Below, in pieces: positions 1 to 19,347 of a stretch of 19,347 bases of DNA (position 1 is its first letter; each line of letters opens with the position of its first letter). A program made the position numbers and the translations under genes. Below the pieces are notes generated by a model. The model was given only the letters and a program-made list of their open reading frames with translations, ran no database searches and was not told where the DNA came from. This DNA comes from Cryoendolithus antarcticus. Taxonomy: Eukaryota > Ascomycota > Dothideomycetes > Cladosporiales > Cladosporiaceae. The stretch lies in assembly GCA_002077065.1 (NCBI GenBank), contig NAJO01000127.1, forward strand, positions 1-19,347, in the 5' to 3' direction.

Positions 1-2875
1 TTCTACGGTTAGGCGAAGTAGGGTCGCTTACTTTGCGCACAGCGTCTGTTAGCTTCGTATTCGAGGCGTAATGTGTTTGCCAAGCAGACACTCCCTGCGC
101 TTTGGCCACGATACCCGTGTATGAGTCCTAGGATGTCCTCGAAGCCCGTGCATTACACTCTTCGTTGTATGGGGAACCTCGAGAATCTGGTCCGGGTATT
201 GCATGAACAGTGCCAAACGCTTCGCACGCGCACGGGGATTTTATTGAGAAACTGCCAAGGCAACTGCTTGGGAAGACTATCTCGACGTTGACGTATGCGT
301 CATAAACCACTTAATTAGATACAGCGTAATCTATCGTATAAGCGGTGTGACGAACGGGCAACAACCTCGGCCGAAAGTCCGATCAACAAGGTCTCCCAAC
401 CGCTGATCCCCGAATCCATAGACCCCGAGGTGCAAACCGTGGGAATCATCATCCACCTCCCCACCTTTATCGTGAGCGACCACGGGTAAATCTCGATCAT
501 GTTCAAAGCCGTGTTCGCAACCATACTAGTCCATTCTGTTACACAGACATCTTGTTTGCCTGTTGTGGATGCGCTGCCATATACGGCCCAATCAGTCCGC
601 TGTGTGACGACTGGAGACAATATCGGTATCGTGTACGTTTGGGCTAGAAGCACGCCCCTAATTCTGCTAAATGCTTACACAGGCTTGAAGCGGTCACATG
701 TAGGGATGCACTGACGTTCAATTATCCTCGTTTTCTGCCTATAACACTCTCCGCTGTGCCGCACACGTATGAGGGCATGCAATATGGCTATCTCAGCATG
801 CCACATGCTCTTGGGGACGTTTCTGAGATTTTGCAATGGTCAGTAATTGTTCTGATTGGTATACAATGCCTTACCGTTCATACGCAACGCAAGGCCGAAG
901 CGACTGAGTCGTGTAGCACTTTACTGATCACAGGAGGCTACAAAGATCCAGTAGCGTTCATGAGCCAACAGGCATGAAACACGGATAGTGATCAATCCTG
1001 CCATGACCGAAGGGTCAGCAACTACACGCATGCATCAGGTCATCCACACACAGCCTCCCTCGCGGTCTACGTACATAGTATCAATCAGCTGATGAAGAAG
1101 GGTGCGATTCTACAATATAAGAAGGCAAAGACGCAGCCAGTCCTCCAGATGATGGATCACGCCGTTTGGTGGAGAGTGTTGTCACTCTTAGCTGCTAGCT
1201 CTACCTTCACACTAGTCCGTCTGCCGGTGATATAATTTCTAGAACAGACGTCACGGAGAGAAGTTCTTTACGGAGTTCATAGCTTGCCTTATAGCAGATA
1301 CAGAAAACCTGGTTGGCGCGCCTCTGGCGTGCATTAAAAATGTACCAGTCTTTTGTCTCGTATATAGATCATCATGCGTGCCAATATGGCAAAATTTCTA
1401 TAGAAATTGTCGCTTGTATGATCCATGTCCTTGTCGCCTGCTTGTGGGTTCCTTGTACTAATAGCGACCGATCCTATCACCGTGGAAAACGTTGAGACAC
1501 TCGCGATGGAGGTGTTATATCTGCAAGTGCTCTCCACTAGGCTAGGGTGCTTGATCTGACTATTCTTGGGAACTAACAGTTTGATCACACTGAGGACAAT
1601 CAATCCTCCAACTGGGTCCACTACGAATGTCTCGTTATGGCACGACGTAATCTATCTAGTTAGGACTATACCATGCCTAAGTACCACTACTACTCCTAGG
1701 AACCGTCACGTCTACATAAGGCGATACACACGACTATCAAAAGCGCACGTCTACCTAAGGCGATGCACACGACTATCAGAAGCGCGCGGGTCACGGCGAT
1801 GGGCATCTGAGGCGCTGATGTAGGAGAATGGCGATTATCTAACGTTTGCTATAAATCCAATTGGAATTCACTTCGTCCTTAATCCAATCCAATTCCGAGT
1901 TGTTGCGGGGGAGATATTCATTTACCACTGGACCTTCCTGATCACACAGTCTTCGCCGTTTGCAGCCATCGAGCTTCAGGTATCTTATCTGGCCAAGAGA
2001 GACCACTACATCAGGAGCCAAAGGTCCGCGCTCCTCGTCTGTAAGGCGTCGTTTGCTCATAGCTAGATGGGCTGAGAATAAGTAGGAAGAGGGACGACCT
2101 GTGTATCTATACGTTGAATGAACCACTTGTACGTAATATCACAAATTCTAGACTCCCTTGATTGAATCGGATCTGGCCGCCACAATGCATTCACGCGCAT
2201 GACACAATTGCGGACGTCTCTGGCTTCGCAGCGGATGTGCGTCGCCAAACCTCTTAGGAAGGGACATCCCCGTGTAGGCTGGATGTCCAGATAATGGGGG
2301 ATCAGTCACAGGCTAGGTCTTTCGCCTTGGTTATAGAAATTGGGACCCGTAACCCGGATAAGCTAGAATATGAATCACGTTGCAGTACTCTTCTTTGTGA
2401 TCGGGACAGGCTAGCAAGTCCTGAGAAGGGTCCTGGGCGTGACAACAGACACATCCGCCCATAATCTAACAACTGCATGTTCGCAAATTGAGCAACTCCC
2501 GATCGCGCTGGCTCCCCACGACATAGCAGAATCAGTTCGCAAATTCAAAGTACATAGGTCTAGCCTCAGACTATCAATTCATTCCCTCGGTCGCCACATT
2601 ATCTGATCTTCAACATGCTTGTCCAGGACGTCTCCGAGTCACCTAGCCGCAAGTCTTCCGACGTGGTAAAACACAAGTAGCGACCTCACTTGACATTCGT
2701 TCCTTCGCTGTCCAAGATCCAGGAACAGCGAGGACATGCGGTCCATGTGTGGGCTGGATCTTGCTGTCATCCGCCAGGGAATGGCTTAGATCTAAGCGTA
2801 ACGTTAGGTCCCTTGATGGACAGATGGCTTAGCGACGGGAACACCGGTCGAGCATAGCATCCGAGATGTATACTA
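1..2875. other. Left flank, no gene recognised
   Basis: Short open frames occur here on both strands, but none resembles a known family or can be spliced into a convincing protein. Small inverted repeats are visible (GGACATCC at 2262-2269 with its complement at 2281-2288; CAAGATCCAG at 2713-2722 with its complement at 2754-2763). There is also one tandem repeat, listed separately. I see no tRNA, rRNA or transposase remnant. The stretch ends in the TA dinucleotide (2874-2875) that abuts the large element. It is probably host intergenic DNA or decayed repeat. Confidence 0.6.
1707..1784. repeat. Two-copy 39-bp tandem repeat
   Basis: The unit at 1707-1745 begins CACGTCTACATAAGGCGATA and is followed directly by a second copy at 1746-1784. 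The two copies differ at only three positions. A partial third unit (GGCGAT followed by a GGCATCTGAGGCG-like tail) may follow near 1795. No function is evident. Confidence 0.85.
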
Positions 2876-3420
2876 ACGTCCGTCCCTGTGTGGAGAGACG
2901 CCCGGTGTTGCGAGACACTTTTGCGTTCCTAAATCACTATTGTTCCCAACCGCCAGATATTAACGTGATAGACATATTTCCCAATTCCCTAGCCATTTCT
3001 TGCCAGATGAACATAGCGCAATGTCTCAACTAGTGGTGTGTATTGCTCTGTTGATATAACCATCGCTACTGCTCATTATCGTTCTGACTCTCCGGCCGGG
3101 GTGAGGAGTGTGTGGCTAGGTCAATGAGGTTGAAAAAAGGTTCGATGAGTTTGCCGTGGACAGTAGAACACCCTGCGACAGCTTTCCGGGCCGTTGACCG
3201 CTGTTGCGGCATGCGCGTGAGTGTTAAAGAAATCATCTCCAGCCCGTTTGGCTGAAGCCGTTTGCGAAGCTTGACCGATATCGCGCAGTCGATCGTCTCT
3301 GATTTGCTCGGTAAGATCAGTACGGGGACGGAAGCGCCGTCTTCCGCCCGTCGCATGTCATATCTTTTGGCAGCTGGCAGAGTTTTTTGGGCAAACCTAG
3401 TGTGCTTGAGCAGGTGGTCG
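2876..3420 (+). repeat. Left terminal inverted repeat arm
   Basis: This arm is the reverse complement of 17955-18499. Over the first 100 bases about 89% of positions match, and the first 33 bases have a single mismatch (ACGTCCGTCCCT against ACGTCCATCCCT). Similarity falls inward but stays clear, with several small indels; shared blocks include GCTTGACCGATATCGCGCA and GTTGCGGCATGC. It becomes undetectable by eye near 3420-3450. Such long arms are unusual for Fot1-like elements. An open frame on the minus strand at 3066-3356 is partly shared with the other arm but is frameshifted there, so I do not call it a gene. Confidence 0.9.
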
Positions 3421-3779
3421 GTTTCTCACGCCACATGGCCGCTTTCTCGCCGAGGTCGGTTCGCATAACATTAGAACCAGTCATTTTGCGCAGCGGCCAT
3501 CTGCAGGATCAAACCCCATACAATTATGGCTAGCCAAATGTGGTTTTGTGCAGAGTCTGCGATTGTACTTATCAAAGCTCGACTAGGTTGCGGCTATGGG
3601 CTCAGTGTGGGATAAGGCCACATGCGCTTGATTGACTCTTGTCACGTAGTGGATTTCAAGTCTCGATGCATTCTTGTGTCTTATGTAGTGTAATAGTTCC
3701 AACGTTCCCGGAATGCAGCAGCAGAAACGCACTGTCACAGTGCTCTACTTCGCTCTACTCAATGATCAGATAGCAACGT
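3421..3779. other. Noncoding stretch between left arm and arsH
   Basis: About 360 bp with no recognisable gene. It would hold the 3' untranslated region and terminator of arsH, which is transcribed leftwards and stops at 3780. I see no clear repeat or conserved motif. Confidence 0.5.
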
Positions 3780-4808
3780 TCACAACCTCTTAAGGTCCAC
3801 GCCATTGACACCCTTACTCAAATCTTCCCGGTCTGCCTCACTAGGGACCATCTTCGGCCGCTCGCTGAATCGATCATTGAATAAGTCGAAATTGTCCCTT
3901 ATAAGTAGGCTGTACTTGACGAACTCTTCCACACAGTCGACCACTCGATCGCGGTTTACTCCTTCTATCAATCTCGAGCCGCCTTCGGGGCCGTCCACTT
4001 CTGGAAATTGCTTGTAAGCCATGGGTATTGAGGACTGGTTCGGAATCGCAAACATCCGCATCCAACGGCCGAGAATTCGTAGACTATTGACGGTATTGAA
4101 GGATTGTGAGCCACCGGAAACCATAGCCATACCGAGAGTGCGGCCTTGTGTGGGTCGGACGGAGCCGGTGCTGAGAGGGATCCAATCAACTTGATTTTTG
4201 AAGACCGCAGTCTATAAAGGTGTCAGAAAGTGCTCAGTATAGGCGGCGAGGGTTGTTGTTAGACTCACAAGGGTACCGTGCTGCTCAGGAGAAATCCAGA
4301 AGTGGCCGTCACTCCAACGGCTCAAGTTCCGCAGCTCCTGCACTTTGGGATGGTCGTGTTGCCTGTCGTCTTTCATCGGGAGGTCGCGAGGATCATACAC
4401 GCGTACGTCAACGCCTAGTCTGAACAATATCCGGCTGATCTCATACGCCAACAGCCTCGAATATGATCTGCAAATCGGTCAGTTCAAGAAACTAGTGGTG
4501 ATCGGCGGTGGCGAGGTATCGCACCTCGTCCTCAGACTCCCAAATAGTACCAGCACTCTCAACCTTGTGCCAGTCTGCTGAGCGGCGTTGTGAGATAGCT
4601 CCGTGACTTTGGCCAATTCCAGTTGGCTGATCCAGTCCGACGAGGCGATGTCATCGTTTAGAACGAAAGGTCGATATGCCTTGCGCACCGCCGCATTATC
4701 TTCATCCTCAGTTACAAATAGCGAACGGAACGCGAAAGCTTTATCAATAACAATTGGCTCTGATGCCCGCATCGCTATAGTGTTGTTGAGATCTCCGTTA
4801 GTCGTCAT
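3780..4808 (-). CDS. arsH: ArsH, NADPH-dependent FMN reductase / organoarsenical oxidase (3 exons)
   Basis: ArsH proteins are flavodoxin-fold FMN oxidoreductases that oxidise trivalent organoarsenicals and occur in many arsenic resistance clusters. The protein is assembled from exons 4808-4525, 4467-4269 and 4211-3780. Two 57-bp introns (GTGCGA...TTGCAG and GTGAGT...TTATAG) leave an open 304-residue protein. The N-terminal FMN phosphate-binding loop GSLRTRSYSR spans residues 90-99 and is rebuilt exactly across the first splice. Later family signatures are [35 protein letters not shown] and SGGSQSFN (193-200), followed by [11 protein letters not shown]. Length and motif order fit fungal ArsH, and no lesion is visible. 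I chose the ATG giving MTTNGDLN; an upstream in-frame ATG at 4868 would add 20 residues. It is the leftmost cargo gene, in the same orientation as acr2. Confidence 0.93.
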
Positions 4809-5787
4809 CCTGCCTGCGCTGCTAATATTCCTGATCGTGACCGAGACTCCGAATGGGTTTGATGGCAAAGGGGCTTGGTAGATGGCGAGTGTGAGAATAC
4901 TCCGTATTTACTTGCGCATCATACGACACTTGGCTGGCATAGTTCGGGCGTCAAAGCATTCGATTCACGGCTGTTGATAGTTCAACAGCATAGCTTATCG
5001 GCCTTCTCTATTTTTGGCCGTGCTATCATGGCGTAGTCACTGCCCTGAATCAGTTGGATAGATATGCCCGCCCGTGCATTCGTGTGGCGTGCAATCCGCT
5101 TGGTGGAGGACGATCACTGCTTATTGACATGCGATACATGGTGTTCAGTTAGCCTAAGCCTGTGTGACCAAGTCGATGGCGCAACTATTCTTGCGATGGG
5201 CATGCGTACGCTAGGGAGTCCAGACTTCGGACATGACTATAGCGGTCTCTAGAGTTGCGCATAAGTATTACACTGGGTTGATAGACTGCCGTATTCCTTT
5301 AGCTGCTAGTGTACTTAGTAATCCACGCTCCCAGACTCCAATTGAGACATAGAGGTAGTGCTCTCCTCGATGGCACACTTCCGATTTGAGGCGCAGTAGC
5401 TCACTAACGTAATAGATCACCCTAGAGCTCCTATTCGGCAATCTGCAACAGAATCTATGATATGAAGTGCAACTGAGTAACCTGTCGCTGTCGCCCTTCG
5501 AGTAACAATCGTGGGCCTAATCCCATTCGCGATTGATCGTGAGGCAATGTTATAAGACGGGGCGATATCAGAGCAGCTGTATTGCTATAATATCGCAAGC
5601 TACACGCGAGGACTTGTCCCTACAATGGAAGGTGGCCCGGGATCAGATCAGCGACGATAGGACGGCATTCGCAGCGCAACTACTACAAACGGGTCATCGC
5701 TAGGCTGTCGCAGCACAACTCGAAACTCTATAATGAAAGGGGAAGAAGACTGCTACTGGATCAAAGAGAATACAGATGGATATGCAT
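4809..5787. other. Intergenic region between acr2 3' end and arsH start
   Basis: About 980 bp without a recognisable gene on either strand. It should contain the arsH promoter and the acr2 3' end. The only clear structure is a perfect hairpin at 4970-4989 (GCTGTTGA, four-base loop, TCAACAGC), about 160 bp upstream of the chosen arsH ATG. No arsM-like methyltransferase or regulator is visible. Confidence 0.5.
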
Positions 5788-6388
5788 TCAGGCTCTCGCA
5801 TCTCCATCGACGAACTTCGCATATTCACTACCAGCCTTGAACCACCCATTGATGCCCTCAGTTAGCACCATGGACTGCATGGTGGTCTCACCGTGCTGGA
5901 CTATTATGTCTTGGAACCAGCCAGATGCTCTACTGCCCCGTCCTCGTGATGATACTGCACAACGTTCAGATTAAAGCTTCGGTAGATGGCCAAACAGACT
6001 ACGAGGATGCCAACGTACCGCAGTAGAATATTACGATCGACACGCCCGCAGCTTTACAAAGCTCGTACAATGACTCCAGACAGTACCACAACGACTGTGC
6101 TGGCAGATTTAGGGAACCGTGAATGGTGCCGCCCTGCGTGTCGGACATCAGCACTCCTCCAATCGATCAGATCTACGAGGCCGGATTTGGAGGACACGGA
6201 ATACCGTGACGTACCTCATGATCAGAACGACGAAGGTCGATCGTAAGGAAGTCACGTCCTGGCAGCTTGTTCTCGTCTTGAAGCAGTGCTAGCAGTTGAC
6301 CTCGCGAAATGGAGTCGGCTTTCGCCTGAGGGGTCGGTAAGTTGGCATACCATGGCTTTTCAGCGCTGGACTGCGTGATGGAAGACAT
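5788..6388 (-). CDS. acr2: Acr2/ArsC arsenate reductase, Cdc25-rhodanese type (3 exons)
   Basis: This enzyme reduces arsenate to arsenite with glutathione/glutaredoxin in the cytosol, supplying the substrate of Acr3. Exons are 6388-6215, 6133-6019 and 5954-5788. The introns are 81 bp (GTACGT...ACGCAG) and 64 bp (GTACGT...GTGCAG), and the spliced protein has 151 residues. The N-terminal part reads KPWYANLPTPQAKADSISR and then GRDFLTIDLRRSDHE. The splice restores the canonical rhodanese continuation GGTIHGSLNLPAQSL. The active-site loop is C96-V-S-S-R-G-R102, a C-X5-R loop; the usual fungal form, as I recall it, has Gly after the Cys, so Val97 is unusual and lies at the second splice junction. 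The C-terminus has MQSMVLTEGINGWFKAG, the usual final rhodanese strand and helix. I chose MSSITQ as start because an upstream in-frame ATG (6490) only adds a non-conserved hydrophobic stretch. It appears intact and is divergent from acr3. Confidence 0.9.
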
Positions 6389-6988
6389 ATCGTAGATTGC
6401 AGGTGGTCGCAGGCTGAAGAGTAAGCAGAAGGAACTGAAGTAACAAATAATGAATCCAGAGCAGGCGTCCTGGGTGGCGTGTCTAGACACGTTCAGCGCA
6501 TCGGGTTTGGATGCTCTCGATCAAATACATACTATGACCGAATGAGCATACCAACGTTAGTCACCGATCCTTAATGACATACTCTCGGTCGTGGAGGATA
6601 CCAGCGAAATTCTGTTGTTCCAATGACAGGTTGGACAGTAGTCACTGATTGTGGCTTCCCGCGCTCCAGACGGCACAGGAATAACGCGGTCCTGTCTCCC
6701 TATAACAACTGCAGTAACGTGCACAGCTCAAGCCCCAAGAGCGGTTTCGATCGGAGTTCGAGCCAATCATACGCCGAGTGTTACTACCGCCAAGTCTATT
6801 GCTCACCATCAACTCGGTTCCACCGTTAGTACATTCGATGCGCTTTCCCATTTAACTTACGCGGCGAGACCGAAGGATATATGCTAGTATGGATCATATA
6901 CTGACGGCTGTGTCAAGACGTCTATTCCTCCGTGCATCTTGCTACCGTGTTCAAGCATTTGATTGGAAGTCCAAAGGTGTCTCACAGC
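6389..6988. promoter_or_regulatory. Divergent acr2/acr3 promoter region
   Basis: This 600-bp gap separates the two divergent start codons and should hold both promoters. Two sites stand out. One is a perfect 14-bp palindrome CGTGTCTAGACACG at 6478-6491, about 90 bp upstream of the acr2 ATG. The other is TTAGTCA at 6557-6563, which equals a Yap1/AP-1 recognition sequence; Yap-family bZIP factors (Arr1/Yap8, Yap1) control arsenic genes in yeast. The sites are seen; their use is inferred. Short open frames here have no family resemblance. Confidence 0.4.
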
Positions 6989-8054
6989 ATGGCTTCTCTA
7001 GGACTTGATCCCGACCGCAACAACATGCACCAATCACCTGAAGAAGCAGCAAACCAGTCTTCTTTCGATCCTGAGAAGGGGTCATCGTCGAACCTGCCCA
7101 CTGCCATCGAAAGTGGCCAAGCCAGCAACCCTAAGCCTAGAGGAAAAGAATCCGTGTACAAAGGACTTGGATGGCTGGATCGTCTTTTGGCGCTGTGGAT
7201 ACTTCTAGCCATCATCATCGGCATTCTCATAGGCAATTACGTGGACGGTGCGGAAGCGGCCTTGCAGAAAGGGAAATTTGTGCAAGTTTCAGTACCGATC
7301 GGTAAGCCAATCTTTTGCTCGTCTCTGCTGAACGACTCGCTAAATGCAGTGACAGCTGTCGGGTTACTTGTGATGATGTACCCGATCTTATGCAAAGTGC
7401 AGTATGAGACATTGCATCTCGTCTTTCAAAAACGCGCGATATGGATTCAGCTAGGCTTTAGCATTCTGATGAACTGGATTGTCGCGCCATTCTTGATGCT
7501 CGCGCTTTCCTGGGCATTCCTTCCCGACGAACCAGGCCTGCGCGAAGGTTGAGTACAGCGTAGTCGCCACTAGCGTTGGCGTTTTTCTCGGAATACCGCT
7601 GGGTGCTGCCATCGTAACGCGCTTCGCCATTCGCGCACTCAGCGCAAGATGGTATCAGGACGTCTTCCTCAAATGGATCGCCCCCTGGTCGCTCATTGGA
7701 CTACTATACACCATCCTAGTGCTCTTCGCATCGCAGGGTCGCAACGTTGTGCACCAGATCGTGTCAGTCGTTCGCGTTGCCGCACCGCTGATCGTCTACT
7801 TCTTCGCTATCTTCTCATTCACGCTATTTGTGACGCACAAGCTTGGATTTGGATACAAATTGGCGGCGACTCAGAGTTTCACCGCTGCAAGCAACAACTT
7901 CGAATTAGCGATCGCTATCGCTGTGGCAACATATGGGCCAAACTCTGATCAGGCGCTGGCTACTACGGTGGGGCCACTTGTTGAGGTGCCGGTGCTGTTA
8001 GCCCTTGTGTATTTAGTGAAATCGGTAGCAAGGCAGAGAGAGTGGAAGGACTGA
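6989..8054 (+). pseudogene. acr3: Acr3 arsenite efflux permease, broken by an internal deletion
   Basis: Acr3 is a ten-helix plasma-membrane arsenite/H+ antiporter. The first exon (6989-7301) starts MASLGLD and has a polar N-terminus, then GLGWLDRLLALWILLAIIIG as helix 1. A 48-bp intron (7302-7349, GTAAGC...ATGCAG, no in-frame stop) is supported because its removal gives the family sequence VSVPIVTAVGLLVMMYPIL. The frame continues through FLPDEPGLREG and then hits TGA at 7550-7552. Homology resumes in the next frame at EYSVVATSVGVFLGIPLG and runs to the natural stop at 8054, including TAASNNFELAIAIAVATYG and VGPLVEVPVLL. Compared with yeast Acr3, roughly 65 residues are missing between REG and EYS. 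They include the segment with the conserved LARCIAMVL cysteine needed for transport. The junction shows AAGGT(T), compatible with a microhomology deletion that also shifted the frame. No intron choice can restore the missing helices. Confidence 0.9.
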
Positions 8055-8312
8055 GCCATCAACGTAACCACCGAGTCTCCGTCCAGTATGTCCTCCTCGT
8101 CCGTCTTCCGTCCCTTCGCCTTGAAAGTCCCCCGGGTGGCAACGACCTCTCCAGCCCCGTCTGGACGAGGGCTCGCTTAAACAAGAGACGACATAGGGTA
8201 ACCGTGAGAGCGCAAGCAAAGCCAGGAAATTTGTGTCGACACCATCCCGCATCATTTCACTCTCTGCAACCGCACTCTTAGCCGATTGGAAGCCGATCGA
8301 GCTACAAAGCCC
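8055..8312. other. Short convergent intergenic region
   Basis: 258 bp between the stop of the broken acr3 (plus strand) and the stop of the ATPase (minus strand). It must hold both 3' ends. I see no gene, and no obvious shared terminator hairpin. Confidence 0.5.
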
Positions 8313-11300
8313 TCAGTAGTCTCTACGAAACCACTTCAACTGCAGCGCTACTAGAATAACAGGCAAGACGCTCACAATCTCGCCCAGCCCAGCGTACTGC
8401 GGCGGAATGCGCGCATTCACAAATGCGCCAGCAGCCAACAATATTGCAAAGAGATTGTAGACAAACGACCAAGCAAAGTTCAGAGATACTCGATGCATAG
8501 CCGCGCGCGAGAGATCCAGCGCTACCAGAACACCAGTCAAGGCAGGACGCAAGAGCACAACATCTGCAGCAGCCTGAGACACATCGCTTCCGCTGCTCAT
8601 GTGCACGCCGACATCGGCGCAAGCCAGTGCGATGGCGTCGTTGGTGCCGTCACCACAGAAGAGGGTGTGGACGCGTTTGTCTGTGGCCAAAGCCGCCATG
8701 TACTCTTGCTTATCACCAGGCGTGCATCTGGATCGCACGTTTGTGATGGGTACGGCTAGTTCTGCAGCCACGGCATCCGTCGCACCTGCGTCGTCCCCGC
8801 TGACAATTGAGATAGCAATCTTGCGCTTCTTGAGCTCAGCGAGAACACGTCTGGCTTCCGGGCGAATGTGGTCATGGAGCCCAAACAGCGCTGCAGGTAC
8901 ACCTTCGACGGTGACGCCGAAGACAGTGAGTCCAGCATCAAGTAGGCGTCGTGCCTCGGGCAGATTCTGTAGTGAGAGCCAACGTGTATTCCCACAACGG
9001 ATTAATCGTCCTCCGTACGTCCCTTCGACTCCTTGGCCGGGAAGGGCCCGCACATTCTCCACTTCAGCAGCTTTGATGCCTTTGCTCACCAAATGAGACG
9101 AGATTGCCATAGACACCGGGTGCTTACTGTTGCTTGTCAGGCCAAAAATGACAGGTCTGGCAACCAGATTCGCTCCGAGAAAGATCTCTTCTGCGATACT
9201 GAGCTCGCCTGCCGTAAGCGTACCTGTTTTGTCGAAGACCGCATGGGTAACTTTACGTGCGCTTTCGAGCGCGACGGCTGTTTTGAAAATGACTCCATTC
9301 TTCGCAGCAGCACCTCCAGCCACGACTGTGACCATAGGTACGCAGAGGCCAATTGCACACGGGCAAGATACGATCAGTACGGTGATGCCATAAGTGATGG
9401 CGGCGACTACCGCCTCGCTGGTGCCCTGAAGTCGGACGCGGATGCCCACTGCAATCCAGATCACGACAGTCAAGAGTGTAAGCACGAGGATCGCGGGCAC
9501 AAACCAGCCAGCAACGATGTCGACCATTTCTTGAGTTTTTGCTTTCTGAAATTTCGCCTCGTCAACCATTGCTGCGATCGTACTGATGGTATTATTACCG
9601 GGTAGGTTCGTGAGACGAACAACAATGACGCCAGACGTATTGATCGAGCCAGCAATCACTGGAGAGCCAGGGCTTTTGTCGATGGGAAGGGCTTCTCCAG
9701 TGACCATGGACTCATCGACTTCAGTCGTGCCTGTAACAATGATGCCATCCGTACCAATCCGCGAATCGGGTCCCACTTTGAAGTTGTCTCCGTATTGTAG
9801 AAGCCGAGCATCGATCTTTTCATCGTTACGACCATCAGCGTCGCACAGCGTAGTTGTCTGTACTTGAAGTGATCTGATCGAGACGGACTCGACCGCTTTC
9901 TGCCTGGCAAAGGCGCTGACTAGGCGGCCAAGCATCACCAGCGTCACAAGTAGAGTACTTGTCTCGAAGAACTCTCCAGTCTCTAGAGGATGCCCCGTGA
10001 CTAGGTACGTAAAGGCGACGATCGAGAACACGTACGCTGTTGTTGTGCTGAGTACAATCAGAAGGTCCATCTCGATGACTCGCGTAAATATCAAAGCCCG
10101 TAGGGCGCTGGCGTAGAAACGACCGGCAATGAGCACCTGGACCGCAGTCGCAAGTGCAAGTGAAACAGAGCCATAGACTATGGCTCTTGGTGGAACGGAA
10201 GCCCAAGCCAGCACGAGGACAGGAATGGTAAGAGCAGCGGAGGCAAGAGTGAACCAGGCTGTTTCTCGCACGTGCTTTTGCCCATTCTCGAGGTCCGGAG
10301 ATATCCTGCAAACAGCGAGCCGCAGTCGAGTGCCGAACAAATCTGCTAGCACAGCTCTGGCCCCAACGACGTCTGGGTCGAAAGTGATGCGCAAGACGCG
10401 CTTGTCTATCGCACTTAGCTGTAGAATCCCCTTTGGATAATCGCGTTCAGCAAAGGCCTTCGCATCGCCGTCAATGAGAACATCCAACTCCTGGCCTTCG
10501 GTGTTTACACGTTTGCAAGAAAAACCAGTGGACTTTTCCACTGCCTTGATGATCTCATCTATAGGACTGGCATTACCGTCGAGGTCGAACTCTGCTTTTG
10601 ACATGACAAGACTAGCGCTGAGATTGTGAACTCCAGGGATGCCATGTAGTGCTCTGAAGAGCTTAGTTTCACAGCCAGTGCAGGTTAAGCCTTCGACGGA
10701 CAGAGACACATGCTGTGCAATCAAACCACCCTTTTCAATATCAGTATCTGTCTTCGTTTCAGCGCCCACCCTGGTCTGCAGGACAGATGGTCGCACTTGC
10801 TCATCACAACAGTCGTTCTCATACGCTGCTTTCCGTGGTGCGTCCGGTGTGCAGCTGCTGGAAGCGCAGCAAGAAACACCTTTCGCCTTGGCTGCGCAGG
10901 ACATTTCTCCCGGCTTCTCGGCACATGATGTTTCGGCGCAGCACTGCTCTTTCTGAGCACTCGTAGCTTCCTGATCACATGCCGTACCAGTCTCTCCAAC
11001 ACAGCTCTTGTCATCCACGTCGGCACTTGGCGCATGCAACAGATTGGCCAAGGAAGAAGCTGAACCAGGCCTTGTACGCCTATTCGACCCAGCAAGCCTA
11101 GCTTCCTTGCAGCACGGCTGTAGATTGCGCAGGATCAGCTCTCTGCAAATGCAGCCAACGCTCAGCAGCATACTGGCAAAGTCTTCGCGGGTCTTGCTAG
11201 CATGATCTGAGCAAGCGTCCCGTTTGCGCTTGCGGGACGGTGCACCGGAAGCGGTCGGTGATGGCGCCGGGGTTCCTGGACATTTGTCGCCCTCGCCACA

Positions 11301-11519
11301 TTCGACGCCCTTGCCACATTCGAGGATACACTGTCGATAAGCGATCTTCTCTAGACAAGAGTCTACGGACGCCGATCAGTAGTCACCACAAGCCGTACCG
11401 CTAGGGGAAGGCATACCGTCACAGCATCGAAGGTCTGCGCCTGCGCCATCACGCAAGCGGGAGTCACTTCCATCACAAACTAGGCAGGGCGGTGCGAGTT
11501 CAATGACAGGCGGCGTCAT
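8313..11519 (-). CDS. P1B-type heavy-metal ATPase with Cys-rich N-terminus (Pca1-like; 2 exons)
   Basis: P1B ATPases export or sequester soft metals such as Cu+ or Cd2+ across membranes at the cost of ATP. Exon 1 is 11519-11417. A 54-bp intron (11416-11363, GTATGC...CCGTAG, branch-like CTGAT) holds the only in-frame stop. Splicing gives LRCCDDSCLEKIAYR and a 1050-residue protein. Residues 1-230 are very rich in Cys pairs, with a basic stretch SRKRKRD near 77-83. An HMA domain with CTGC lies at 262-265. Helices flank the actuator motif TGEALP (589-594). The metal-site motif SCPCAIGL has CPC at 701-703. Other motifs are DKTGT at 745, HP at 782-783 (SKHPVS) and GDGTND at 938-943. All catalytic residues are present. 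The last helix reads GEIVSVLPVILVALQLK instead of the MxxSS of Cu+ pumps, which fits the Pca1/Crp branch; I cannot settle the metal from sequence. It could contribute to arsenical, cadmium or copper tolerance. Confidence 0.93.
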
Positions 11520-11997
11520 GGATGCGTGTGTGTGCTTGTAGTCCGGATGTATTGCGAAAGAGAGAGAACGATCAAATGTGGATGTCTATACACACAAGAC
11601 AAGGTGCGGCGGATGATGCAATACCAAAGTAGTTATGACGTTGAGACGAAGCGTAATGCCACTCAGTCACTTTCAAAGCCTACGGGAAGCTCCGCTCGTC
11701 ACGCTCAGGCAGAGATCAGCGCAGCGACGATATCTCCCATTCGCATTTGTTAGCCCCCTCCGTCGTAACTCCTTTCATGTCCTTCTACGACACGTACCTA
11801 GCCCTCGGCAATTTCCGCACCCTCCGCTCGATACTCAACCCCGCCCTCCCCTGCACCCGACAAAGCACGTTACGTTGTCCATTTGATGCTTGTGACATAG
11901 GCACCTTTCAAGATTCTCAGGACTTTTATGATCACGCTGACAAAGCTCATGGCATGTCAAACGACCTGTCCAAAAGCTTGCGAACCGTGAAAGTGCC
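11520..11997. promoter_or_regulatory. Divergent upstream region between ATPase and its degenerate paralog
   Basis: About 480 bp between the intact ATPase start (minus) and the first recognisable sequence of the degenerate copy (plus). It should contain the ATPase promoter. I found no convincing factor-binding palindrome. The right half contains a possible small coding piece, listed separately. Confidence 0.35.
11777..11970 (+). other. Possible coding fragment with a C2H2-like zinc finger
   Basis: From the ATG at 11777 a frame reads MSFYDTYLALGNFRTLRSIL and then LRCPFDACDIGTFQDSQD followed by FYDHADKAHG. The spacing C-X4-C-X13-H-X4-H resembles a C2H2 finger. The frame continues past 11970, where it overlaps, in a different register, the start of the ATPase pseudogene. 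It could be the remains of a small zinc-finger protein, a lost N-terminal exon of the pseudogene, or chance. I do not recognise a specific family and give no function. Confidence 0.25.
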
Positions 11998-13345
11998 CGC
12001 TGTTGCATCTGCAGAGAGATGGTGTTCCATAATCTCGAACCCTGCTGCAAGGAATAGTCGCGCTCGCACGTCTCTCCAGGCGCTTCTGCTGGCGTGATGA
12101 CCTCGTCCAGCTGCAGCATAAGAAAGTCATCCGCGGGTACAGCTCCATATTTGGCTTCAGATGATGTACATTGGATCCTGGTCAATTGCAATCGCAAGAC
12201 AATACCCGAAGAATTGGAGCAACGCCGGACGACGTGCAGGGAGATCTGCGCCGGAAACACAGCTGGAACGTGTGAGAAGCAAGCTATGCAGTGAGCAAGT
12301 GTATAACGCTGTTTCGGTGGATGTATGTTCGTCGGTAGGCAAATGGTCAGGCGTCCCAACAAGACAAGCTGCTATGAGCTCAATGGACAAAAAGGCTTGC
12401 TGTTCTGAAGCCGGGAAAGTTATGGGTGAGGAGCCTTCCGGCGACGCTTATCGCCGCAACCTGGACGACTTTGCTGCAAGACTGGATAGGGAAAGCGACA
12501 TGGGTCTTGATATTGAACGAGGTGTTTTACTTAGGCAGCAAATCTCTCTTCTCGTCGAAGGTTCGACATGCACGGGTTGCGAGACGAAGCTTCACAAAGC
12601 CTTGAGTGATATTCGCGGCGTCAGCACTGTTCACACTAGCTTGCTGTTATTACAAGCGGAATTCGATCTCAATTAGCGAGCTTGCCCGATTGAAGACCTT
12701 GTCAAGGCCGTTAAGAAGGTAAAAGGGTTCTCTTGCCAGCGCTTGAGCCGTCCGGGTAAGATTTGGATATAATAATTCATTCTGACGCAATGGCTTTTGT
12801 TAAGCGCAAATACCACGTTGGACTCCCGCTCATGAGCGTCCTTAGTCCTCATGAGATCTGCGTCTCCTTCGATCCGATGTGTATCGGCGCACTCGAGAGT
12901 GCCTTTGGGACTGAAATGAAGCTTTCTGCGCGTCGGACGACTTCCGACCTTGAAATTGGACAGTACCATGTGTGCCGTACGTCTTGGACTCTCTACCGTC
13001 CTTACGATACATGTCCTCGTGCTGGCTTGGGCCCCTCTTGATCCACGTCCAGTCTTATACGGCGCTGCGTCGTTGGCGCTTGCTACTGCTATACAGTTCC
13101 TGATTACCGGTCAGTTCTAGATCAGCGCTTTAAGAGCCCTATCATTTACGAGGACAATGAAGATGGACCTCCGCATTGTGCTTAACACTATGACCGTCTA
13201 CCTGTTCCGTCATTTCCTTCGCATTCGAAGTCAGGGGCCGCCCGCTTTCTGTTGGAGAGTCCTTCAAGACAAGCACATTGCTTGTCTTAGGGAGATGTCG
13301 AGTGTGTTGCCTGTTATTCTAATGGCACTGCATTTGAGATGTTCC
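11998..13345 (+). pseudogene. Degenerate inverted paralog of the P1B ATPase, catalytic core deleted
   Basis: The translation follows the intact ATPase (8313-11519) piece by piece in shifting frames. CCICREMVFHNLEPCCKE matches its Cys-rich region, then meets a stop. GSTCTGCETKLHKALSDIRG matches its HMA domain (CTGC retained), followed by FDLN and a stop at 12674-12676. PIEDLVKAVKKVKGFSC, FDPMCIGALESAFGTEM and SDLEIGQYHVCRTSW follow after frameshifts. MDLRIVLNTMTVYLF (from 13163) matches an early helix. Next, TGGAGAGTCCTTCAAGACAA matches the region encoding ETGEFFETS. It then joins directly to EMSSVLPVILMALHLRC, the extreme C-terminus. About 1.56 kb is missing relative to the intact copy (its 8385-9945), removing the actuator, phosphorylation and nucleotide domains and the CPC helix. 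It cannot pump. Identity is moderate, so the duplication is old. Confidence 0.9.
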
Positions 13346-13927
13346 AGAAGGCAGTGTGCCATTGTGCCAGAATGACTAATTCTTGTGTGGGGTTATATGG
13401 ATTTTCTCGATTCGTCAATGTCTTCAGCTACAAGGAAACGGAAAGTAATACAGAGCTCGCTACCCTGTCCATAACTCTGGCCCCGACGGCATGTAAGTGG
13501 ATGTCTAATTAGGGCGACCCTGTATCCCTTGCGATTGTCGGGTCCTCACACTTCGAAATAGACTCCCTCGTTGCAGTAATGCTACGCCTCGTTCTTTCTC
13601 GAACTTTGAAAGGCGAGGCACCACGTGGAGATTCTAGCAGTACTTCGTGCGTACCGGGGGTGTCGTATGCAAACTTTCGCTTACACATCGAAAAGCAAGA
13701 ACAACGCCTGTCCCCGTGTTGCTGTCGGAATAGTAGCCGTATTTGTGTTGCAATCGAGGGTCAAAAGCCACGTGACTGCGCTTTATCCGCATTGTGCGTG
13801 TTCCTTGCACGATAGATGAGATGGTCTCCAGTACTGTACTCCTTCACAGTCTCTCAACTAGAACAACAACAACAATCGTAGGCACCTAGACACTCACCAA
13901 TCTTAACAACACATTGCTCTAGGCAGA
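13346..13927. promoter_or_regulatory. Upstream region of the exchanger gene
   Basis: About 580 bp without a recognisable gene. It carries two CACGTG E-boxes (13622-13627 and 13769-13774), the core bound by fungal bHLH factors such as Cbf1 and Pho4. An AAC repeat (four units near 13861-13875) lies in the probable 5' leader just before the ATG at 13928. Whether the E-boxes function here is inference. Confidence 0.35.
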
Positions 13928-15181
13928 ATGCCGGACGGGGAAGTCGTCGCCTTCAGTGCTGCATCTTTTGTTTGTGCACTCTTCGTTCTTGAATTCGGCG
14001 CCGACAAATTCATCGACCATACCGCCGTTGTTGCAAGGCGTACCGGAGTCCCCCGGACGATTATCGCCCTACTCACCGCAGGTGCGGAGTGGGAAGAGGT
14101 AGCAATGGACTCTTTGTCGTTATCAAGCCGTATATGCTAACTCACGATATAGTTAGCTGTCGTGGTCTTCTCAATCGCTCATCACCGCCCCTCTCTCGCC
14201 CTCGGCAATGTTATCGGTTCGGCAATCTCTAATATCCTCGGCGCTTTCTCGCTCGGCCTACTCTTCCACAAAGATAGTACGGCTGTATTCGACGGCAGTT
14301 CGAGGCTCTATTCTCTGCTGCTCTTAGCTATAACCAGCCTGATAGCTGCGCTCTTGAACTTCGGGCGCCCTACTGCGTGGAAAACTGTCGGTAGCGTCTC
14401 TGTCGGCCTGTTTGCTATTTACGTCATCTCTATTGCCTGGGCGATAGGCAAAGGGCGTATCGCAGCGCCAGAGCTATCCGATAGCGATGAAAGCGACTCT
14501 GAGGTGGACGATGCGCAAGGAAGCCAAACTGGAAGGACGAGTGCTGCTTCGAGCCAGCAAGCAGACGCAAGTGTCGAACGTTTGCGGGAACCCTTGCTAC
14601 GAAGTGAGAACGCCCAAAACACAACCAGGCTCGTGTCTGCTCGACTATCTCGAGACGAAATATTCTCTCCAGACTCTCCTGCAAACGAGCTCCCTGGCAG
14701 TCCTGCGCAAAGAACAGTACAACACAGCCTTATATATCACGTGGGGCTGCTTTTCGTCGGGTTCATTGCACTCCTCGTTAGCGCATATGTTCTTTCACAA
14801 GCAGCTTCAACGCTGGCCACCGAATTTGCGATATCAGATGTCCTCTTTGGCGTTATCATACTGTCTATCGCAACCACGATACCTGAGAAATTCATTGCCG
14901 CAGTGAGTGGTTCTAGGGGCCATATGGGCATCATGGTTGCCAATACCGTGGGTAGTAACATCTTCCTACTAACATTGTGCATGGGAATAATATGGATGAC
15001 GACAGACGGAGAAATGAGTGAAGATTCTATCAATCTCTCTGAGATTGCCGTTATGCTTGGGTCTACAGTATGGATGGCACTCACCATATGGTACGGAGCG
15101 AGGTGGGCGCGGTATATCGGGGCTGCCATGTTGGCAGCTTACGTTGCCTTCATCGTTTTGGAGTTTACCTTATTGCGATAG
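13928..15181 (+). CDS. CaCA-family (Na+/Ca2+ exchanger, YrbG-like) membrane protein (2 exons)
   Basis: CaCA proteins exchange Ca2+ or other cations against Na+, K+ or H+ across membranes, using two inverted alpha-repeats. Exon 1 is 13928-14098. A 54-bp intron (14099-14152, GTAGCA...GATATAG, branch GCTAAC) contains a stop and is removed. Exon 2 is 14153-15181, giving 399 residues. Splicing rebuilds the first alpha-repeat LLTAGAEWEELAVVV with GNVIGSAISNILGAFSLGL. The second is ATTIPEKFIAAVSGSRGHMG with ANTVGSNIFLLTLCMGI. Both carry the acidic residue expected in the ion site. Between them is a polar, acidic loop (SDSDESDSEVDD) typical of cytosolic loops in this family. Hydrophobic helices are distributed on both sides. 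No lesion is visible. Its place beside arsenic genes suggests a cation-homeostasis role in metal tolerance, but the substrate cannot be read from sequence. Confidence 0.87.
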
Positions 15182-16083
15182 ATGTAGTCTAGCAATCTCT
15201 GTAGCCTCCTTACGATGTGTTCCCCCAGTTTCAATTTGTCTGTCCTTAGGTCCATTTGACTATTGTCTTGGAGACGGCGCTTAGGAAGCATTCAGGAATT
15301 GCTTAACTTTATAAACTTCAATGGTCCTGCTAGCATTGAAGCAAGAGTTTTGTTAATTAATCTGATACTAGGCTTTGATAGCAGACATACAACCTTAAGG
15401 TCTTTGTTACGGTCTCGACTCAGCCTGGCTTTCAATTTACACATCAGGAGTATATATGTAACCCGCAACCGCTATGCCTGTTGCAACTTCGTTGAGCACC
15501 TTCGGTCACGTGACCATGCTCAATTGGTCAGTTGCTCAGTCGCTCAGCGCACTCATAGGTATACAGCAGACGAGAGATGCCTTCTGCTTCTCTCGTATTC
15601 GACTCATTATTCATAGTGACTTCTTGGAATACAACGATCTATACACTGAAATACCGATTGCTCATCCTTCGCTCAAAGACTCGACGACGCTTCTAGCTCT
15701 GCCATCCTCTCAAGCATAATACGTGACTAAATGTCCCCTTCAGAGATCCTGTCACGTGCGATCCATTGTCACTCACGACACAGGTCGTAACAGTCTGCCG
15801 TTCGGCATGAGCGTACGCGTGCATAGCAAGCAAAATGCTGCAGAAACATGCATCCACGAAGGGTAAAGTCCAGGAAATGGAAGAGTAGTAGAATGACTAG
15901 AGAAATCTATAATTATGCCCCGGTACAGCGGGTGTCATGCGGCGCGGGATAGACGTAATCACTGTCTGTGACGTGCTTCAACATGCTTATAAGTTCTGGC
16001 CTTCCACGACCCTAGACGCACCGAACTCCGGAAGTCCAGGCCAACGCCTCTATGCTATCGAAACCTCGCCCAAGGTGGGCGGA
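15182..16083. other. Noncoding region between exchanger and transposase 3' ends
   Basis: About 900 bp with convergent gene ends on both sides and no recognisable gene. The first half is relatively AT-rich. A perfect 12-bp palindrome GGTCACGTGACC with an E-box core lies at 15504-15515, and another CACGTG at 15753-15758. I looked here specifically for a second copy of the transposon tip (ACGTCCRTCCCT) that would make the transposase a separate small element. I did not find one. Confidence 0.45.
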
Positions 16084-17829
16084 TTACCACATTCGTGCTA
16101 CCGGTGCTCTGCCAGGGCAGGGCGCAAGCATACTTGCATCAGGTTGTGGCTTGGCTACCTGGAGCGAAACTTCGGCTGCCTCTGGTATCACGGCAAGTGC
16201 TGCCTCGGTACTTGTACCTGGCATACAGCCATTTTGCGCTCCGCCTTTCCGCTTCCGTCCTCGCTGCTTCTTAGTAGCTTTACCTGCCTCCTTCTCTATC
16301 CGCTTTGCCCGTGCACCTACGAGATCCTCGTAGCTCATCACTCTTGCTTTCCCTAGCACGATGGACTTCGTCGACCGTCGGACTTTCGCCTCGTTGTTAG
16401 CCTTAAGTAAGAATTTGATTCGTTCTTGTTGCAGGGTACCCCTCGCGATAGACGTCTGGGCAGCCTTCGTGAGCTTCTGCAGATGTCGCTGTAGACTTCG
16501 CCTGTCTGTGTCTTCCATCGCCTGGGTATCGTGTTCTACAATCAAGTCATGTAGCGACATAAAAGCCTCTGCTGTTACAGGCGTCACAGGCGTTACAGGC
16601 ACTACGGGAAGCGCAGACGATCTGAGTTGCGAACCACAAGGGATTGAGTTCCATCCCCCAGTGGCTTCCGATAATTCGATCAAAGGCTTCTGCATATCGT
16701 TTAGCACTCTTTGGGGGATCAGAGGGAATAGTCCGCCTTTGCTCCACCCCGCGATAATGTTTCTCTTAGTGAAAGCAGCCTCCCTCGCAGGGCTATATAG
16801 GGAGGTGAAGTGCTGCTTGCCGATTGTATTCACACCTCCTCGCTCTAGACGCTCAACAGCATCGCGGTACGCTGTCTTCAATGGAGCAAACACTGCGATG
16901 TCGCAAGGTTGGAGTTTATGAGATGTGTGAGAAGGAAGACGGCATAGAAGAATGTTGTTAGCAAAGCAATGCTCCAGGATCTCGAGCGACTCGTGCGTGC
17001 CGAAACCGTCGCAGATTAGCACCCGCGGCCTACCGTTTGCCCGGTCTTTGGTTTGAGGATCGAAGACCCGTGTTAGCCACTTGAGGCTAAGCTCAGAGTC
17101 AGTGTAACCCGATTCGGAGCACGCGTAATGCCATCCCGGAGTAGGGAAGGTAGTCCAGTTGCTTCTGTGTGTAGTAGCTGGCCAGATAACCATGGGTTTC
17201 AGATACCTACCATCAGCACTGATGCACTCGATAGCAGTCACCACTGTGCGCTTGACCCGCGCACCTCGGTAGTCCCGTATATCATCTTTTCCAATAAGGA
17301 CCTTCACGGACCCGAGCATAGAGAGCATAACTCCCGTCTCGTCCATGTTGTAGACATTCTCTGGTAAGATAACTGGGTCTTCTATTACCTTGCTAATCAC
17401 CTCAAACCAATGTCCCACCTTTTCATAGATGTTGTTTTCGTGACGATTCCAGTCTAGTGCCCTGACCCGTCTTGCACTGAGCTCAGGATGCCGTTTTTCG
17501 AGAGCTTTAGCCCAGTTCTTCCCTGGAGGTCTCACTGGTCTGTCCGCTTCCGGCCTATGACGTGTGGCAGTGAAGGCTATGGATGGTATGTACTTGATCC
17601 GTATGGGGGTACCAAGCTCGGCCATTTGTAGAATGAACTCTATCATTGCCGTCTCTTCGAAAGGAGAGAGGTACTGCTGGCCTTGAGCTTTAGACTCGAT
17701 CGATTGTCGGCCGCGCGCACGGTGGTGCAGGGTGGCATGAGGGACTCCGCTATGATCTGCGATTGCGCGGTATGACCTGGGAACGCCAACGGGAAGGGCC
17801 TGCGCCAGGACCCGACTGGCTTTGTCCAT
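16084..17829 (-). CDS. Fot1/pogo-type DDE transposase
   Basis: This is the enzyme expected to cut the element at its terminal repeats and join it at TA sites. The frame is open without introns. From the chosen ATG (MDKASRVLAQAL) it gives 581 residues; an upstream ATG at 17895 would give 603. Fot1 itself has roughly 540. A Psq-type helix-turn-helix (SYRAIADHSGVPHATLHHRA, residues about 19-38) is followed by a Tc5/CENP-B-like DNA-binding region (LSPFEETAMIEFILQMAELG). The DDE_1 catalytic core has D163 in NMDETGVM, D274 in ICDGFGTHES and D310 in LQPCDIAVF. The last two are separated by 35 residues, as in pogo-like enzymes. A VTP run (three 9-bp units at 16574-16600) and a basic KKQRGRKRKGG segment lie in the C-terminal tail. 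All catalytic residues are present. The gene starts about 125 bp inside the right arm, which probably provides its promoter. Confidence 0.95.
   Translation of the reverse strand: MDKASRVLAQALPVGVPRSYRAIADHSGVPHATLHHRARGRQSIESKAQGQQYLSPFEETAMIEFILQMAELGTPIRIKYIPSIAFTATRHRPEADRPVRPPGKNWAKALEKRHPELSARRVRALDWNRHENNIYEKVGHWFEVISKVIEDPVILPENVYNMDETGVMLSMLGSVKVLIGKDDIRDYRGARVKRTVVTAIECISADGRYLKPMVIWPATTHRSNWTTFPTPGWHYACSESGYTDSELSLKWLTRVFDPQTKDRANGRPRVLICDGFGTHESLEILEHCFANNILLCRLPSHTSHKLQPCDIAVFAPLKTAYRDAVERLERGGVNTIGKQHFTSLYSPAREAAFTKRNIIAGWSKGGLFPLIPQRVLNDMQKPLIELSEATGGWNSIPCGSQLRSSALPVVPVTPVTPVTAEAFMSLHDLIVEHDTQAMEDTDRRSLQRHLQKLTKAAQTSIARGTLQQERIKFLLKANNEAKVRRSTKSIVLGKARVMSYEDLVGARAKRIEKEAGKATKKQRGRKRKGGAQNGCMPGTSTEAALAVIPEAAEVSLQVAKPQPDASMLAPCPGRAPVARMW
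16574..16600 (-). repeat. Three 9-bp tandem units inside the transposase gene
   Basis: GTTACAGGC, GTCACAGGC and GTTACAGGC follow each other on the plus strand. On the coding strand they give the VTPVTPVT stretch of the transposase C-terminal region. They are in frame and likely a linker expansion. Confidence 0.8.
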
Positions 17830-17954
17830 TCTAACCCCGTCGCTGTCGAAAAAGGGCAATCCCGTACCGATGGTGCAGGGCATCCGAGGCAGCAAACAAG
17901 AGACTCTCAGCCACTGAGTTAGTCACTGCTCCACAGAAAGCGATGGAGCCTCTT

Positions 17955-18499
17955 AGATACGACCTGCTCAGCCACACTGCGTCTGCCAAAATTTTGCGTC
18001 TTGTGCCAAAAGAGTGGAAACTAACGGCGCGGAAGCTGATGCTTCCGTCTCCACGTTGATCTCCCCGAGCGAATCAGAGATCATCGATTGCGCGATATCG
18101 GTCAAGCTTGGCAAACAGTCTTTCAGCCGACGGGGCTGGAGATAGTTTCTTTTCAAACTTACGAGCATGCCGCAACGGCTAACGGCCCAAAATCTCGTGC
18201 AGGGTATCTACTCTCCACAGCAAACCCACAAACCTATTTTCAACCTCATCAACCCGGTCACACAACTGCTACCCCGGGTTGAAGAATTGGGGCAGCAGTG
18301 AGCAGTAGCAATAGATCTGTTAAGGGAGCATCGCATGCCGCTGGTTGAGACATTGCACCTTCTTTATCTAGCGGAGAACTGTCTGGGGAGTAGTGGAACA
18401 TGTGTATCACGTCAATATCTGGCCGTTAGGAACAAGAGTGAGATAGAAACGCAAAAGTGTCTCGTGACACCGGGCGTCTCTCCACACAGGGATGGACGT
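17955..18499 (-). repeat. Right terminal inverted repeat arm
   Basis: Read on the minus strand from 18499 it starts ACGTCCATCCCTGTGTGG and follows the left arm for about 545 bp. The outermost third is the best conserved. It also holds a 9-bp stem (TCAACCCGG at 18249-18257 with its complement at 18274-18282), which the left arm lacks. The inner border lies about 125 bp upstream of the transposase start codon. Confidence 0.9.
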
Positions 18500-18501
18500 T
18501 A

Positions 18502-19347
18502 CACATAAGGTCAGCACTAACGCTCGATTTGCAATGAAGGGGTAACCATGGTCTTGGCTACGTAGCAATGAGGCCGCAGAATCTCGCCCGATATCTTGCG
18601 CCCGGAATGCTAGCACAAGCATCCACTCGGAACATATCGAGAAGAGGCTTGTCAGTTTCGGAATGGACATCTACCATACCAGTTGTACGAAATACGATGG
18701 CCTGATCGTGGAACACTGTCCTGGCAGTCCGACTGAACCTATGTAAAACTCTGCCTACCGCGGAATATGCGCTGCTACATGTAACGTCCGTCCCTACGTC
18801 GCGAGTCACCCCGAGAGGCGAGCCATCGGCGTACAATCAGTCACGGAACTCAGTACATACAATAACGAGTGCGAATAATGCATACCGCCGGCGTACTGGC
18901 TCGCTTCCTAGGGTGGCTCGCTACATAGGGATGGACGTTAGCCTATCTCCTTCTCCGCTTAGTGTTCTCCTAGTACAGTGAATCACAGCACGACTGACTT
19001 CTTAGCTACGCTCGAACTGGGTTTCAGTCTTTTAAATGGAGATGTACGAGCACATGGCCCCTAGCTGGGGACCGACGACTACAAAGATTAGCAGTCATAT
19101 CGGTATGCTTAACAAGCCTCTAGAGTGACACGAATTACGGAGTCACATTAGGAAGGCCAAAGATCGTCCTTCCGGATCGGAGATCCTGATATGGCGGCCT
19201 TGTATTCCCCACATACTAACGCGACATGAACTTGATCCCGCGTACAAATATCTGCGCATTCTATCGTCCAGGGCAACGTGTCGAAGTTAGGGTAGTATGC
19301 CATACCATTGATGGTGATGCCAGCTTTAGACCAGTGCCTTGGGATTT
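18502..19347. other. Right flank, no gene recognised
   Basis: Outside the large element I see no coding region with family resemblance. The only structured feature is the 155-bp inverted-repeat element at 18784-18938, listed separately. The remainder looks like host intergenic DNA. Confidence 0.55.
18784..18938. mobile_element. 155-bp MITE-like element with tips matching the large transposon
   Basis: The element is flanked by TA on both sides (18782-18783 and 18939-18940). It has inverted ends of about 41 bp: ACGTCCGTCCCTACGTCGCG on the left and ACGTCCATCCCTATGTAGCG read inward from the right. The outer 12-13 bases equal the tips of the large element, including the same G/A variation at position 7. 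The inner sequence differs from it. There is no coding capacity. It fits a non-autonomous pogo-type MITE that may be mobilised by a transposase recognising this tip. Confidence 0.8.

Follow-up and report, generated by a model that had tools for sequence, protein, structure and literature searches.

A probable 15.6-kb pogo/Fot1-type transposon with long arms and metal-gene cargo in Cryoendolithus antarcticus

Can a transposon of the pogo/Fot1 group carry a block of metal genes between its ends, or have the inverted arms, the transposase and the metal genes of the locus described here come to lie together in some other way? Members of this group are typically 2–3 kb in length, with short terminal inverted repeats (TIRs) and a transposase as their only gene, though this description is not strictly a defining one; the present locus departs from it in its length of 15.6 kb, in arms of 543–545 bp and in the five or six cargo genes that these enclose. 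Adaptive cargo in fungi is mostly credited to the Starships and their tyrosine recombinases, and a metal cargo carried by a DDE element that encodes its own transposase would represent a second route, in an element of easily handled size.

The window analysed here is the whole of contig C32, which is 19,347 bp in length and belongs to a genome assembly of 46.97 Mb in 149 contigs; the remaining contigs are named in the same manner, with a position after the colon where one is needed. We consider it likely that positions 2874–18501 represent one old, probably autonomous transposon from a branch of the pogo/Fot1 group that has long arms. Judged from sequence, the oddity is wider than this one element, since related tips with long arms enclose genes of several kinds in this genome.

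Arms, transposase and cargo in the window

The features of the 15.6-kb unit are as follows.

2874..3418, + strand: left arm, including its tip; one copy of the TA target at 2874–2875; best genome match other than itself is the right arm
3780..4907, − strand: arsH, in separate frames with an intron-like insert; Pfam FMN_red and NCBIfam ArsH on the 3' part, 3780–4211
5788..6520, − strand: acr2-like (arsenate reductase) frames, named by eye only
6905..8054, + strand: acr3 (arsenite efflux), in two frames; NCBIfam acr3 (TIGR00832) and comparison with the C108 and C115 paralogues
8313..11375, − strand: heavy-metal P-type ATPase, PCA1/HMA (HMA_PCA1 domain), one ORF of 1020 aa; Pfam, and NCBIfam TIGR01525 over its cut-off
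12344..13210, + strand: degenerate second ATPase piece with stops
13928..15181, + strand: CaCA (Na/Ca exchanger family) gene; Pfam Na_Ca_ex; tblastn gene model; over 342 aa it shares 85% of its amino acids with the exchanger on C134
15552..15792, no strand: dispersed repeat between exchanger and transposase, found at 24 further genome positions
16084..17922, − strand: DDE_1 (pogo/Fot1-type) transposase, a 612-aa stop-to-stop ORF with no internal stop; first Met at residue 14 or 32
17959..18501, − strand: right arm, including its tip; the other copy of the TA target at 18500–18501

The left and right arms align over 553 columns with 75.0% identity (E=4.7e-94), both start with the tip TAACGTCC[G/A]TCCCTGTGTGGAGAGACGCCCGG, at 2874(+) and 18501(−), and TA flanks the unit at either border, all of which bears out the inverted arms, shared tip motif and TA borders described in the initial annotation. 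When the left arm is used as a query against the genome, four places reach E≤0.001. Besides the position of the query these are the right arm (7e-91), a C8 arm that accompanies a related transposase (2e-27) and, matching by its tip, a locus on C134 (2e-10). In a joint alignment of the first 300 columns the two window arms are 75.9% identical, and the C8 arm shares 67.6% and 67.3% with them. When the comparison is extended to 1.5 kb so as to take in the transposase, the right end lies closer to C8 than to the left arm, which is expected if C8 holds a sister transposase.

Since the arms are 25% diverged, the movement of the window element was not recent. Their identity of 75% corresponds to about 0.30 by the Jukes-Cantor correction, and the exchanger copies of the window and C134 differ by a dS of 0.27, which suggests that the two divergences are of similar age. 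RIP was considered as the source of the arm divergence and rejected, the dinucleotide indices giving no clear signature.

No empty site for the window element was found in its own genome when both flanks were searched: the left flank recurs solely in a contig-end overlap with C40, the right flank solely by way of the tips of a mini-element, and the flanks are otherwise unique in the genome. The overlap comprises window positions 1–1013, 100% identical to C40:14535–15547, and C40 probably continues the window leftward. A tandem direct repeat of 39 bp, in two copies of 92% identity, lies at 1707–1784. The mini-element is 159 bp in length (18782–18940), lies 280 bp outside the right arm and has TA borders and the same 14-bp tips, at 18782(+) and 18940(−), which are of the commoner GCGAGCCACCC type. 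Because these 14 bp also occur there, it is the arms, and not the tip by itself, that mark out the 15.6-kb unit.

The transposase sits directly inside the right arm and reads away from its tip. It matches Pfam DDE_1 (PF03184; E=6.4e-32) and has a DD35D catalytic triad (D194, D305 and D341, with 35 residues separating the last two), so the intact DDE transposase noted earlier inside one arm is confirmed as an uninterrupted frame. The pogo group has an N-terminal HTH DNA-binding domain, and a candidate match to HTH_Tnp_Tc5 scores 16.7 bits, under the cut-off of 22.2. A database match at 64% identity bears the name transposase tan1, and the best named relative, from Cladosporium inversicolor, stands at 74%. 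The C8 transposase shares 84% and 73% of its amino acids with the window copy, in two pieces, and the homology stops at 16082, two bases past the transposase frame, so that the cargo is not shared with C8. Between these copies dN/dS is 0.15 (aa 16–406) and 0.22 (aa 473–612), with dS of 0.5–0.8, values that suggest the transposase was constrained for much of the time since it split from the C8 copy and that speak of past constraint rather than of present activity.

A separate left terminus for the transposase, which the initial annotation had named as evidence against a single unit of arms and cargo, was sought in the window with a tip profile, and none was found (best other candidate E=0.64). 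A candidate at about 15945–15958 was rejected, having three mismatches, as expected by chance, and a tip-profile E of 0.76.

Read from the transposase towards the left arm, the cargo consists of the CaCA exchanger, the degenerate ATPase piece, the heavy-metal ATPase, acr3, the acr2-like frames and arsH. Of the genes named earlier between the arms, arsH, the metal ATPase and the exchanger are upheld by their protein families, acr2 stands on inspection by eye, its ORF at 6173–6520 having no family match in Pfam or NCBIfam, and acr3 proves to be damaged. The arsH pieces share 63% and 78% of their amino acids with a paralogue on C58, and the gene looks complete across its intron-like insert. The acr3 frames cover positions 1–105 and 166–326 of the 327 in TIGR00832, with a frame change near 7549, and some 60 model positions are missing between them; the C108 paralogue has this stretch, which was not found elsewhere in the window. 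The arsenite pump therefore looks broken, though an assembly error may be the alternative, and to speak of an 'arsenic-resistance gene cluster', as the initial annotation did, overstates a cargo whose acr3 is shortened and shifted in frame. The dispersed repeat has an end, GGTCGTAACA, that resembles an LTR end, and is a later insertion or a fragment.

The tip family across the genome

A search of the genome with a 30-bp tip pattern, allowing up to three mismatches, gave 62 tips, against 3 with a reversed-pattern control, and arm sequences were compared at 37 and then at 35 ends of these 62 tips plus their neighbours. Neighbouring convergent tips form nine pairs, situated in the window, in the mini-element and on C4, C8, C42, C73, C130, C133 and C136. 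Long arms are present in four of the nine (C4, 762 columns at 83%; C136, 635 at 80%; the window, 553 at 75%; C133, 466 at 67%), at most the tip is common in another four (C8, C42, C73 and C130), and the remaining pair is the mini-element. In the long-armed pairs the first 50 bp are 94–98% identical as against 53–87% further inward, which is expected if the tips are under selection.

In the C4, C133 and C136 pairs one arm or both find a closer match at some other end in the genome than in the partner, as with the right arm on C133, which is 91% identical to C27:5109 over 431 bp and 67% to its partner; these better matches fit units whose two ends have for a long time been distinct lineages, and they also fit a mixing of ends. 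Four ends that have no transposase (C130:77951, C136:20761, C136:25587 and C9:24581) match transposase-bearing ends (C4:39352, C138, C49 and C43) over about 430–560 bp, the match stopping near the transposase start, and in these comparisons arm length is a family trait.

An inward-reading transposase lies within about 540–670 bp of the tip at eight ends, namely C8:10608, C4:39352, C138, C49, C29, C43, C136:60179 and the window. Of these, only the window end converges with a neighbouring tip whose arm matches it over a long stretch; no such partner was found for the other seven, and no cargo-free copy with a transposase and two matching arms was found in the genome. The idea that C8:10608 and C8:23854 bound another such element, of 13 kb, was rejected, as the far tip belongs to a different type and the arms do not match. 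As a separate observation, the outer flanks of C138:2180 and C49:659 are 99% identical over 244 bp and the elements inside them 81–88%. At C8:8282–8307 two 14-bp tips stand back to back with one TTAA in common, as if two ends had met.

Several kinds of gene lie inside these ends. Six ends are alike far inward (C4:5984, C8:8295, C9:15348, C51:5551, C61:591882 and C120:59937), of which C4:5984 carries TPR repeats and C8:8295 an NB-ARC frame. At C133:34242–39690 family arms with no transposase enclose a gene that combines HET, NACHT and ankyrin repeats and is spread over two frames, which may be an NLR-carrying element; the C136 pair encloses TPR repeats and the C130 pair an HAD-like frame. On C4 the convergent tips at 5984 and 35719 are separated by 29.7 kb, with TPR, dynamin-like and retroelement frames in the parts read, which lie outside 7498–26783. 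The right end of this contig holds 502 bp that are a 100% inverted copy of 34982–35483, possibly an assembly artefact, and, as the interior was read in part and the end may be artefactual, C4 is the weaker evidence.

Insertion at TA can be followed at other members of the family. On C42 a 10.4-kb unit with convergent tips splits a family transposase (aa 31–251 and 251–563), and its flanks, joined by one TA, read through in frame, thus providing a two-sided empty site. The ends of this unit have only 40 bp in common, at 82.5%, one TA copy is TT and a further transposase copy lies inside, so that the unit may have grown after insertion. One-sided empty sites, each with a single TA, are provided by the flank of C9:24581, which continues element-free on C136 and C7 (98%), and by that of C130:77951, which does so on C4 (94%). 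The far end of the C9 element was not found, the other side of its site occurring only in the empty copies on C7 and C136. TA target duplication is thus seen at the level of the family (C42, C136, C7 and C4), and the window element itself has TA at both borders only. We rejected C130:72945–77951 as a proven unit: the right flank has its empty counterpart on C4, but the sequence outside the left tip does not continue across that site. The flanks thus stem from different sites, and two tips can converge without bounding a single element.

A second locus in which a tip of the window type stands beside an exchanger is found on C134. The tip, at C134:19651, is decayed, with two mismatches, and is 86% identical to the right tip of the window over 65 bp. 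At a distance of 4–6 bp stands another copy of the exchanger region, arranged and oriented as in the window, with which it shares 83% of its DNA over 1.64 kb; the locus has neither the rest of the arm nor a transposase. Compared with a protein of Rachicladosporium sp. CCFEE 5018, the C134 exchanger is 95.2% identical over 250 aa and the window copy 83.2%, and for this reason the C134 exchanger may be a resident gene that an element end adjoins, or else a remnant of an element.

One transposon and its alternatives

The reading of 2874–18501 as one transposon draws on four of these results: the best genome match of the left arm is the right arm, the same tip type accompanies the exchanger on C134, the tips far outnumber those of the control and the C42 site shows what preceded an insertion. 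Arms, transposase and cargo do look like one pogo-type element, as had been proposed, the arms being each other's partners, and we infer that the window copy moved as a unit by its own transposase. In such a scheme the transposase would be made from the gene beside the right tip, would bind both tips and cut out everything between them, and the excised unit would reinsert at a TA, which would be duplicated; the cargo lies between the 3' side of the transposase and the far arm. Cargo may have been gained when the transposase paired the facing tips of different copies that flanked host DNA, and the ill-matched ends of the C42 unit, together with the C134 tip beside its exchanger, are consistent with such cross-copy pairing.

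An accidental composite, in which a full element on the right and a solo end on the left, in opposite orientation, came to stand around a resident metal block that never moved with them, is in our judgement unlikely. A genome with 62 tips, in which solo and unpaired ends are common, offers scope for such accidents, as do the failure of the C130 pair in the one-site test and the four convergent pairs of nine that have only the tip in common, one more being the mini-element. This account is opposed by the arms, which over their length are mutually closest and of a type found at just four places in the genome, by the recurrence of the same tip type next to the C134 exchanger and by the want of any other transposase terminus in the window.

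Very improbable, we believe, is a capture still in progress, in which the arms would be one unit, assembled by tips of different copies around host genes, and in which the exchanger and ars genes would have joined it lately from the host genome instead of being long-standing parts of the element. The C42 ends entered one site despite their short likeness, the C134 exchanger, being the closer to the CCFEE 5018 protein, may be near the resident locus, and arsH, acr3 and the ATPase have paralogues elsewhere in the genome. However, these paralogues are not close (arsH, 70–71% at the DNA level; acr3, 62–64%, and the ATPase, 43%, at the amino acid level), so that these three genes were not recently copied from this genome, and the exchanger copies differ by a dS of 0.27. 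To a Starship (tyrosine-recombinase) fragment later invaded by a pogo element we attach scarcely any probability: Starships are known to carry metal and arsenic genes (Hephaestus; PMC11623301) and the genome has nine captain-type DUF3435 (PF11917) matches, on C145, C148, C67 and C78, but none of the nine is on the window's contig, and the borders of the unit are pogo-type tips with TA. The contig, at just 19.3 kb, is short enough to lie inside a larger element.

Comparison with known cargo-carrying elements

The transposase places the single transposon that we favour in the pogo/Fot1 group, and cargo elements that duplicate TA are already known, ToxTA being the closest precedent. ToxTA (formerly ToxhAT) of wheat-infecting fungi measures 14.3 kb between TIRs of 74 bp that are about 92% identical, duplicates TA and is attributed to Tc1/mariner; it is described as non-autonomous, its mobilising transposase is left open by the authors, its cargo includes a host-selective toxin gene, an NLR-type Patatin-TPR gene and others, and empty sites are seen between isolates (PMC6737239, PMC12506042). 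It resembles the window element in size, TA borders and the possession of several cargo genes and differs in that the window has arms of about 545 bp, its own transposase inside an arm and a metal cargo, a distinction drawn from the published descriptions.

Icarus is a putative element of 294 kb with ToxB, TIRs at its edges, DDE endonuclease genes in the captain's place and an HET-type gene; its authors consider that it may be disabled and that the element may have acquired its DDE genes at a later time, and they call the target duplication only 'potential' (PMC9594970). It shares edge TIRs and DDE genes with the window element, on that description, and is about 20 times larger. Fungal Fot1/pogo elements have DDE_1, DD35D and a TA target, and some other Tc1/mariner members have TIRs of several hundred bp (PMC7325037). 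Among the matches listed in a literature search, which covered titles and abstract openings outside subscription papers, no pogo-type element with metal-gene cargo is described.

A broader reading, which we hold to be somewhat doubtful, is that this genome has a class of cargo transposons with a pogo-type DDE transposase that would work as Starships do. Its members would have arms of about 450–760 bp, a conserved 45-bp tip, a transposase first inside one arm and variable cargo (metal-resistance, HET-NACHT-ankyrin, NB-ARC/TPR or dynamin-like genes) captured by cross-copy tip pairing. The window element would be its sole complete autonomous representative in this genome, and ToxTA and Icarus, for which a mobilising enzyme has been wanting, would belong to the class or be related to it. 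An element of the kind described here makes testable the questions of what moves ToxTA (PMC12506042) and of the role that DDE genes play at the border of Icarus (PMC9594970).

The Starships themselves resemble the window element in the kind of cargo, Hephaestus having arsenic and cadmium resistance genes (PMC11623301), and in a recombinase gene placed first at one end; they differ in that this enzyme is a DUF3435 tyrosine recombinase and in their typical size of about 100 kb. The captain-type DUF3435 matches at C145:10584–11782 and C148:37520–38836 contain stops, and we regard these as Starship remnants in the same genome.
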